Positions 758 through 1,290 of a DNA stretch of 64,000 nt are shown in pieces. The position numbers and the translations under genes were made by a program. This DNA is from Hydrotalea flava. GTDB lineage: Bacteria; Bacteroidota; Bacteroidia; Chitinophagales; Chitinophagaceae. The DNA lies in contig NZ_LUHG01000052.1 of NCBI RefSeq assembly GCF_001623405.1, forward strand, positions 1 to 64,000, given 5' to 3'. The stretch's first letter is position 1. Every line of letters begins with the position of its first letter. The notes beneath the pieces were generated by a model that ran no database searches, had not been told where the DNA came from, and was given only the letters and a program-made list of their open reading frames with translations.

Positions 758-836
758 CGGACCGGACGGGACTCGAACCCGTCTCGCCTCAGGCGAGATG
801 ACAGGGCGGCATTCTAACCAACTGAACCATCCATCC
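758..836 (-). pseudogene. Decayed tRNA-Asp copy with palindromic replacement
   Basis: On the minus strand this matches the intact tRNA-Asp at 1217-1290 in two blocks: the D arm through the anticodon loop (from GTTCAG to the GTC anticodon and following A), and the T arm to the 3' end. The acceptor 5' strand is GGATGGA instead of GGATCGG, giving two mispairs. The 12 nt that form the 3' side of the anticodon stem and the variable loop are replaced by a 17-nt palindrome (782-798). The anticodon stem cannot form, so it should not work as a tRNA. The stop codon of the neighbouring nuclease gene lies in its D-loop region. Confidence 0.8.
782..798. repeat. 17-nt perfect palindrome inside the tRNA remnant
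   Basis: The arms TCTCGCC and GGCGAGA flank a 3-nt loop. It replaces the 3' anticodon stem and variable loop of the tRNA-Asp copy, with sequence matching the intact tRNA on both sides. No second copy was noticed in the window. Confidence 0.75.
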
Positions 837-1101
837 TAATATTTTGCATCCATATATTAACCGGCTGTGCAATTAACCATTGTAAATATTTTTTATTGCA
901 TCGTTTAAGTTTACGCTCTTGTATTAACGCATCTCGTTTGGTTTCAAATGCCTGTACGAATATCAAACGCCAAGGCATTTTTTTGCTTGTAAAAGCGCTT
1001 TCTCCTCTGTTATGTTGTTCAAGTCGGTTAAGATAATTTTCTGTAACCCCCTTGTACCAATCTCCATCTACTAAACTTTCAATGATATACACATAATACA
1101 T
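814..1101 (-). CDS. GIY-YIG nuclease family protein (small, standalone)
   Basis: A 95-aa single-domain GIY-YIG nuclease of the UvrC N-terminus/UPF0213 type. The first motif reads YYVYII and the second is YKGVT where the family has YIG. The catalytic Arg lies in LNRLEQHN and the metal-binding Glu in IQERKLKR. I chose the ATG at 1101, because the open frame further upstream only reads through the tRNA-Asp gene. The usual C-terminus is replaced by about a dozen residues encoded by the 5' end of the decayed tRNA copy (NIRMDGSVG then TAG), so the tRNA remnant supplies the stop codon. It lies between an intact and a broken tRNA-Asp, all on one strand. Members of this family are often seen near RNA genes in Bacteroidota (from memory); role and substrate are unknown. 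Confidence 0.8.
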   Translation of the reverse strand: MYYVYIIESLVDGDWYKGVTENYLNRLEQHNRGESAFTSKKMPWRLIFVQAFETKRDALIQERKLKRCNKKYLQWLIAQPVNIWMQNIRMDGSVG

Positions 1102-1170
1102 ACAAAGCAGTTTTGAACTTTTTTGAAATGCAGCAATGAAGTAAAATTTTGCTTGAAATCTCTCCTTCCT

Positions 1171-1211
1171 AAAACAAAAATGCCTCGTAAATAATACATT
1201 TACAAGGCATT
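1171..1211 (-). terminator. tRNA-Asp terminator
   Basis: An inverted repeat of about 14 bp with one mismatch (1179-1192 with 1198-1211, arms AATGCCT-GTAAAT and ATTTAC-AGGCATT) is followed on the minus strand by TTTTGTTTT. It sits 6 nt past the tRNA-Asp discriminator base and separates the tRNA from the GIY-YIG gene. Confidence 0.7.
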
Positions 1212-1216
1212 TATTG

Positions 1217-1290
1217 CGGACCGGACGGGACTCGAACCCGCGACCTCCGCCGTGACAGGGCGGCATTCTAACCAACTGAACTACCGATCC
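1217..1290 (-). tRNA. tRNA-Asp (GTC)
   Basis: A complete cloverleaf is seen on the minus strand: acceptor GGATCGG/CCGGTCC with one G-T pair, D arm GTTC-AGTTGGTTA-GAAT, anticodon stem CCGCC/GGCGG with loop CTGTCAC (anticodon GTC), 5-bp T stem with TTCGAGT loop, discriminator G. The length is 74 nt. CCA is not encoded (CAA follows the discriminator). Confidence 0.95.

Follow-up and report, generated by a model that had tools for sequence, protein, structure and literature searches.

A small GIY-YIG nuclease gene with a palindrome-broken tRNA copy as a recurrent unit in structured RNA genes of Bacteroidota

It is clear that a small GIY-YIG nuclease gene accompanied by a broken tRNA copy is a real, widespread and recurrent unit in Bacteroidota. 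The example described here in full is found in Hydrotalea flava, in a 64-kb window, which is the whole stretch of DNA that was analysed, and its nuclease gene is placed between an intact tRNA-Asp and a second tRNA-Asp copy interrupted by a palindrome. In our judgement the chance falls just short of even that this unit, about 0.4 kb long, is a minimal mobile element of homing- or transposon-like type, residing within tRNA genes and restoring an intact copy. This reading is drawn from the anatomy of the unit, its recurrence, the clustering by tRNA isotype, an empty site, the arrays, the conserved catalytic-type residues and the clean palindrome insertion seen in one group. No published description of the unit was recognised in the literature searched, with preprints and most subscription journals outside its scope.

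All parts of the unit are found on the minus strand of the window. The intact tRNA-Asp(GTC) (1216-1290), detected by ARAGORN, is the sole tRNA in the 64 kb and the only intact tRNA-Asp found in the H. flava genome (G000). It is followed by a terminator-like hairpin (1212-1178), by the nuclease gene (814-1101; 95 residues, a single domain; PF01541, E 2.4e-14) and by the broken tRNA-Asp copy (757-836), which was delimited by alignment to the intact gene. A further terminator-like hairpin (744-720), 3' of the broken copy, closes the unit. The hairpin search found these two terminator-like hairpins against a mean of 0.8 in shuffles, and the one at 744-720 is similar, as compared by eye, to the hairpins after the intact tRNA-Asp in two other loci (L011 and L077). 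These searches confirm the arrangement given in the original prediction, in which an intact tRNA-Asp, a terminator, a GIY-YIG gene and a second tRNA-Asp copy lie on one strand. They also confirm that the second copy supplies the end of the nuclease, given that it encodes both the TAG stop codon (814-816) and the final six to seven residues, (R)MDGSVG.

The broken copy is identical to the intact gene at 35 of 38 bases in its 5' part and at 25 of 25 in its 3' part. It had been predicted to be intact on both sides of the replaced stretch, which is correct for the 3' part and fails for the 5' part, where three substitutions occur among the first nine bases. Directly 3' of the anticodon, TCTCGCCTGAGGCGAGA (782-798) occupies the place of CGGCGGAGGTCG in the intact tRNA-Asp. 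From sequence comparison, this insert is a palindrome of 17 nt with perfect arms, TCTCGCC-TGA-GGCGAGA, that replaces 12 nt belonging mainly to the 3' side of the anticodon stem and the variable region. The palindromic nature of the insert and its recurrence were absent from the original prediction. The broken copy obtains a tRNA model score of 28.8, versus an Rfam cut-off of 29, and has a fold z-score of -0.93, compared with -0.62 for the intact tRNA-Asp. A group I intron was rejected, given that the insert measures 17 nt. The palindrome has a single exact match in the H. flava genome, and its identification as a dispersed repeat of that genome was rejected because the near matches lie in structured RNA genes. 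One of these is in a model helix of the RNase P RNA on contig C8, and two are within the 23S rRNA gene on contig C20, where the placement in helices is putative.

The nuclease is assigned to the GIY-YIG superfamily by the PF01541 match, by its invariant residues and by its fold. Residues Y5, Y16, G18, R26, H30 and E62 are invariant in an alignment of 51 sequences that includes the window protein, and the catalytic residues of GIY-YIG enzymes are Tyr, Arg, His and Glu. The fold predicted for the window protein is that of GIY-YIG domains (pLDDT 95), and the protein consists of one domain without a separate DNA-binding part. UPF0213 is the best structural match, followed by the structure-specific Slx1, with I-TevI lower, and one match has E ≤0.001. 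The nuclease resembles UPF0213 (BH0048) in sequence and, according to the model, both UPF0213 and Slx1 in fold. Nonetheless, a clade of small GIY-YIG genes that is UPF0213-like in sequence, as judged by eye, has no tRNA link in any of its 37 rows in a nuclease tree of 146 rows. The accessible part of the GIY-YIG survey of 2006 contains none of the terms UPF0213, YhbQ, Bacteroid- and palindrom- (PMC1564403). A phage origin was rejected, the window protein having two weak phage matches (36% identity), and plasmids searched with a related nuclease (L049) gave no match at E 1e-5. The units look chromosomal.

Recurrence was evaluated with a discovery set, taken mostly from the host family of the window, and a test set from other families, both composed of the best-scoring matches listed and not of a random sample. 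For the discovery set, 117 genomes were searched with PF01541, and 80 regions plus further loci were taken; its 156 GIY genes include 16 loci from a separate search, several of them not Bacteroidota. Among these best-scoring matches listed, 97 of the 156 genes have a tRNA within 700 bp, in all 97 cases on the same strand. Many of the genes that lack a tRNA fall in a separate subfamily, the clade of 37 rows described above. In the tree of 146 rows the tRNA-linked label requires 6 changes, compared with 40.5 in shuffles; genes with short domains were left out of the nuclease trees. Nuclease relatives also occur near tRNAs in records of Berkelbacteria, Shapirobacteria and Margulisiibacteriota (L016, L023 and L025).

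For the test set, the query was an alignment of 51 tRNA-linked nucleases; at E 1e-12, 186 of the 296 Bacteroidota genomes sampled contain sequences that match it. Outside the host family of the window (four of its loci, L149, L150, L151 and L161, were left out), a tRNA is present within 500 bp at 93 of the 106 best-scoring loci listed. The outside-family loci contain 164 nuclease ORFs, of which 119 are within 500 bp of a tRNA, every one of them on the strand of the tRNA. A comparison with relatives had been proposed in order to see if the nuclease gene drifts independently of the tRNA, and these counts speak against such drift.

The other 13 outside loci have no tRNA found by ARAGORN within 500 bp. 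The nuclease of L236 directly follows a tmRNA, and after it comes a second copy of the 3' end of that tmRNA, whose T-loop has an insert (1121-1810; Rfam), while in L189 and L192 the nuclease gene adjoins the RNase P RNA (979-1701; Rfam). Taken together, the 93 loci at tRNAs and the three at tmRNA or RNase P RNA indicate that the host is a structured RNA gene, mostly a tRNA. In L239 a tRNA is present beyond 500 bp (Rfam), L212 and L247 contain, by reading, tRNA fragments with palindromes, and six loci (L158, L170, L177, L210, L231 and L246) are close to contig ends; in L203, ARAGORN and Rfam found no structured RNA near the nuclease. It was also observed that the nuclease genes of L189 and L192 end at the 5' start of the RNase P RNA, and that L189 has an inverted copy of the start of the RNase P RNA gene just upstream of the nuclease, which gives flanking inverted repeats.

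A frequent layout of the unit is an intact tRNA, a terminator, the nuclease, a short 5' piece of the tRNA, the palindrome, the 3' part of the tRNA and a terminator. In variants, the nuclease module is repeated, or there are upstream copies of the promoter region with the tRNA 5' part and the palindrome. Such arrays are common, with 35 to 37 loci having an upstream tRNA. The use of tRNA sequence to end the nuclease gene is also recurrent: the stop codon lies within tRNA-like sequence in 55 of 214 genes, compared with 0 of 214 for a control placed 60 nt upstream, and inside an intact tRNA in 29 of 214.

By a strict test, a broken tRNA copy accompanies the nuclease at 63 of 77 and 75 of 93 loci of other genomes (138 of 170 together). 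In the H. flava genome, where 35 of the 38 intact tRNAs were checked, two of the 35 have a broken copy nearby, one being this unit and the other a tRNA-Arg. Given this difference, the broken copies at nuclease-adjacent loci are beyond chance. A control made of tRNAs of the same loci more than 700 bp from GIY genes was rejected: these tRNAs were few and in part members of the same arrays, and with broken copies at eight of 13 they showed no contrast. The tRNA-Arg(ACG) of H. flava (L327; contig C108, 1526-1656) has a truncated upstream copy broken in the T arm, with neither palindrome nor nuclease, which is possibly the scar of a lost unit.

The breaks are located in the D, anticodon or T region of the tRNA. 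A perfect palindrome (arms of at least 6) adjoins one or more of the breaks in 64 of 67 loci of the host family and in 65 of 88 outside loci, the other 3 and 23 having no perfect palindrome of that arm length at the break. Counted per break, where breaks in arrays count several times, a palindrome abuts in 340 of 604 cases, versus 211 of 12080 in letter shuffles. The type of palindrome, which was read by eye and not scored, varies with the nuclease group. The main Met group has TCCGCC...GGCGGA, and the Leu-CAA group has CCTGCCTGCCGGCAGGCAGG. The main Asp group of the host family shows TCCCCACA...TGTGGGGA or TCTCGCC...GGCGAGA, and a Pro group shows GCCCCGCC...GGCGGGGC; TCCCG...CGGGA is found in most Ala loci and in several Val and Arg loci. 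In four tRNA-Leu(CAA) loci (L033, L043, L068 and L099) a palindrome of 20 nt is placed between tRNA positions 39 and 40 with zero loss, and L099 has a second palindrome between positions 70 and 71, in the T-loop. The palindrome is likewise a clean insertion in three Arg loci (L153, L171 and L252), whereas in most Ala, Val and Asp copies it takes the place of tRNA bases.

The nuclease clades are largely faithful to one tRNA isotype. In a tree of 166 loci, with one nuclease per locus, the tRNAs belong to 16 amino-acid groups, and their amino-acid type needs 48 changes, compared with 121.5 when shuffled (0 of 200 as low); in the 146-row tree, 11 isotype labels were assigned by hand from tRNA remnants. 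When isotypes are permuted within host families, using the 160 of the 166 rows that have family codes, 46 changes are observed against a mean of 110.6 (0 of 300 as low), and host family alone is therefore no explanation for the clustering. The nearest nuclease relative is at a tRNA of the same isotype for 129 of 160 loci and of a different one for 31, and where the nearest relative is in another host family the isotype is still common to 46 of 64 loci. Host family clusters on the nuclease tree too (55 changes versus 86.5 shuffled), and vertical descent therefore contributes. The original prediction had suggested tRNA-Asp as the target. This is in line with the fidelity of the clades, and it does not extend to the family as a whole, which with 16 amino-acid groups is not tied to tRNA-Asp.

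One clade is an exception to this fidelity. Its five loci (L058, L062, L063, L102 and L110) are at Asp, Lys, Leu, Val and Leu tRNAs, with SH-aLRT supports of 93 and 91, and in all five the hairpin stops just before TTCGA, which is common to the T-loops of tRNAs. A near relative, L188 (Ser), which is placed closest to L110, has a related hairpin without TTCGA. These few loci suggest that the clade may be addressed to a part of the tRNA that is common to isotypes. When palindromes were assigned automatically to the D, anticodon or T region, isotype fidelity was no lower for T-region loci (nearest relative of the same isotype in 14 of 17, versus 60 of 73 and 30 of 35). This assignment was rejected as too crude, since the T-loop clade was misclassified, and for this reason what is said of the T-loop is based on the six junctions that were read.

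At the tRNA-Asp locus itself, four genomes of the genus can be compared. The intact tRNA-Asp is 100% identical in all four, with one intact copy found per genome. The comparison with relatives that have a single clean tRNA-Asp, which had been suggested, is provided by G003, where a lone clean tRNA-Asp at the same accA-linked place is without the unit and represents an empty site; its sole nuclease relative is a 41% match on a different contig. Together with the recurrence of the unit, this upholds the proposal of a tRNA duplication tied to a nuclease gene. The proposal that the element leaves an altered, resistant copy finds no support in that form, because the intact tRNA-Asp beside the nuclease is identical to that of the unit-free relatives. 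A changed, resistant intact tRNA-Asp was accordingly rejected, and the altered copy alone cannot explain survival. In G002, where the tRNA-Asp is at a contig end, a nuclease relative was looked for and none was found.

The order of the parts differs among the Asp loci: intact tRNA-Asp, GIY gene and broken copy in the window; intact tRNA-Asp, broken copy and GIY gene in L008 (G001), which is next to accA; and broken copy, GIY gene and intact tRNA-Asp in L010 and L011. The parts of the unit are thus constant and their arrangement is variable. The palindrome arms of the window are also present in the broken tRNA-Asp copies of L008, L010 and L011, at the same position, and in that of L014 at another position. 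The common position may reflect common descent, and it is not independent evidence.

If the unit is a mobile element, the nuclease would cleave a tRNA gene at a single internal position, which in the window would be just after the anticodon, and repair would copy the unit into the break. The unit would bring the half of the tRNA that is lost on insertion, so that an intact tRNA would be rebuilt at once. The form in the window would supply the 3' half and the terminator, and the mirror image in L010 and L011 the 5' half. A segment composed of the tRNA 3' part, the terminator, the nuclease and the palindrome would enter the tRNA gene at the position of the palindrome, and the displaced native 3' part would stay behind the palindrome as an orphan tRNA part at the other junction; such an entry would give the common layout. 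The palindrome may serve as an uncuttable junction or as an end bound by the nuclease, and transfer would occur between strains. Given that the intact tRNA of the unit is unchanged, simple immunity through destruction of the site fails. The carrier could be spared if cutting depends on the downstream flank, which the unit alters, or if the donor is cut weakly; weak donor cutting is cited for free-standing GIY-YIG enzymes in the accessible part of one report (PMC13096335).

Several points count against a mobile element. The protein has one domain, and its modelled structure is closer to UPF0213 and Slx1 than to I-TevI. The isotype clustering could be partly a matter of vertical inheritance. Some loci are without a perfect palindrome, most Ala, Val and Asp palindromes replace bases, and no strain-level insertion event was seen among the loci examined. 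Furthermore, the truncated tRNA-Arg copy in L327 exists without nuclease or palindrome.

The closest known system in effect is SegB of T-even phages. According to the accessible part of its description, SegB is a free-standing GIY-YIG homing endonuclease that cuts within tRNA genes, with a preference for the motif RAWTSGAAC. It drives the amplification of tRNA and segB in tandem, and in these repeats the 5' end of the tRNA shares microhomology with the 3' end of segB (PMC13096335). On our reading of the motif, it would be the complement of the tRNA T-loop GTTCSAWTY, from which the tRNA-Asp of the window (GTTCGAGTC) appears to differ at one base. The likeness, as far as the available text on SegB goes, is that of a GIY-YIG nuclease adjoining tRNA genes and of tandem tRNA-nuclease repeats. 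Unlike the unit described here, which looks chromosomal, SegB is encoded by a phage gene, and its protein is larger than the nuclease of the unit. Palindromes and a tRNA copy broken at a fixed site also set the unit apart, neither being reported in the accessible part of the description (PMC13096335).

As with free-standing homing endonucleases in general, the nuclease gene is beside its presumed target (93 of 106 loci, 119 of 119 genes on the same strand) and an empty allele exists, namely the clean tRNA-Asp of G003. Homing alleles usually have the target disrupted in the carrier, whereas here an unaltered tRNA remains beside the disrupted copy; the carrier in the window could still be protected through changed flanks. 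The unit can also be compared with phages and islands that integrate into tRNA genes, which are frequent integration sites, and where the element supplies the missing part and the tRNA is rebuilt. In both cases an intact tRNA is kept and an orphan tRNA part is found at the far junction. The unit differs in having its breaks in the D, anticodon or T region and in its total of about 0.4 kb, and no ORF of the size of a tyrosine or serine integrase is present in its stretch, where the other ORFs have at most 62 residues.

REP palindromes and RAYT (TnpA_REP) transposases resemble the unit, as far as the available accounts show, in having short palindromes, some of them dispersed, linked to a small nuclease gene. 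REP palindromes are reported to be accompanied by a GTAG/CGTC-type tag. The nuclease described here is of GIY-YIG type and not a tyrosine (HUH) transposase, and the palindromes are within tRNA copies; a Y1 (HUH) transposase is absent from the unit, and a search of G000 for PF01797 gave none at E 0.001. Many dispersed palindrome copies are present in many relatives and absent in the genome of the window. A rather unlikely alternative is that the palindromes come first, as REP-like mobile pieces spread over the genome, with the GIY-YIG enzyme acting on hairpins or cruciforms and its gene being housed preferentially in tRNA genes because these are rich in hairpins. The position of Slx1 as top structural match after UPF0213 would fit such an activity, as would the palindrome types that, by reading, differ among nuclease groups, the clean insertions at tRNA-Leu(CAA) and in the three Arg loci, and the second insertion in the T-loop of L099.

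The motif TCCCGA-N4-14-TCGGGA is in excess, with 1369 occurrences versus 428 for the reversed control over 117 genomes and a maximum of 110 versus 2 in G041, and this excess tracks the number of GIY genes more closely than that of Y1 transposases. The Spearman correlation with GIY number is 0.52, and the partial correlation allowing for Y1 transposases is 0.42 (p 2e-6), compared with 0.12 (p 0.19) for Y1 transposase number given GIY; these correlations ignore kinship, and UvrC-type genes are counted among the GIY genes. When only the 29 genomes that lack Y1 genes are considered, the correlation is weak and not significant (0.22, p 0.26). The genome of the window, with its one exact copy of the palindrome, also argues against palindromes as the primary mobile pieces. 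The palindrome ACCTGCCTGCCGGCAGGCAGGT, with at most one mismatch, is present in 18 of 117 genomes and reaches 34 copies in G073 and 20 in G076, yet a close nuclease of the Leu-CAA type was not found in these two (best 45% identity; none at E 1e-9). For this reason, mobilisation of palindromes by the nuclease is treated as a rival and not as a result. Twenty dispersed copies were read in three genomes: 14 of them are not spanned by an open frame of 90 codons, many belong to degenerate short repeats, and one lies within a broken copy of tRNA-Leu. Dispersed palindromes of 22 nt were also seen in L255 to L273, many of them within degenerate short repeats such as ctcaaaatctcgaaatc, and some of the copies in G073 have flanks like the anticodon loop of tRNA-Leu(CAA).

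It is quite improbable that the units result from local amplification only, with rare tRNA duplications that decay, REP-like palindromes that land in the dead copies in the absence of counter-selection, and a nuclease gene that persists beside tRNAs because its cuts stimulate local recombination, with no homing to new sites. In favour of such a process, insertions into dead copies would be tolerated, arrays are frequent (an upstream tRNA in 35 to 37 loci) and host family clusters on the nuclease tree. The polarity of the arrays bears on the same question. A mobile element whose rebuilt tRNA keeps the site would be cut again, and copies would be added on the tRNA side to give tandem nuclease arrays, in which the distal tRNA end would be the most decayed. 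This polarity is not established, which is to the advantage of local amplification: of the 25 arrays whose proximal tRNA end is clear, 15 have a worse distal end, 9 an equal one and 1 a better one, in the 14 with both tRNA ends recognisable the counts are 4, 9 and 1, and a looser count of 37 arrays gives 19 worse, 12 equal and 6 better. Local amplification alone is opposed by the isotype fidelity that is kept across families (46 of 64), by the tRNA copies that supply stop codons (55 of 214) and by the rarity of broken copies at the other tRNAs of the H. flava genome (2 of 35, one being this unit).

A benefit to the host, in which the unit would shield tRNA genes or raise tRNA dosage against tRNA-cutting defences and the broken copies would be decoys or small RNAs, is very improbable given the uneven occurrence of the nuclease (matches at E 1e-12 in 186 of 296 genomes), the degenerate broken copies and the single intact tRNA-Asp of H. 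flava, which means no added dosage there, even if the broken copy is predicted to be still foldable as a hairpin-bearing RNA and if in phage T6 a defence that cuts tRNAs is countered by SegB through amplification of tRNA-Tyr, according to the accessible part of that report (PMC13096335).

Returning to a mobile element, a broader proposal is possible, although we doubt it: that these units are a previously undescribed class of about 0.4 kb, made of a GIY-YIG nuclease of about 80-95 residues and a palindromic end, in which each lineage is addressed to one structured-RNA gene (a tRNA isotype, the tmRNA or the RNase P RNA) and rebuilds its target. Apart from the T-loop clade, the clades would mostly keep to one isotype, and the class may also seed REP-like palindromes in Bacteroidota. 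If this is true, a large fraction of the genomes of Bacteroidota (matches in 186 of the 296 sampled) would harbour an autonomous mobile element that is among the smallest, residing in essential RNA genes with the host surviving. Broken tRNA copies, tRNA arrays and perhaps part of the palindromic repeats of the phylum would then be explained, and small nucleases with differing tRNA-gene addresses would be available as a natural collection. Many small proteins annotated as 'GIY-YIG' would also gain a testable function.

Elsewhere in the window, at positions 40-125, three degenerate direct repeats (GTAAAC...GGAC) resemble the end of an insertion sequence.
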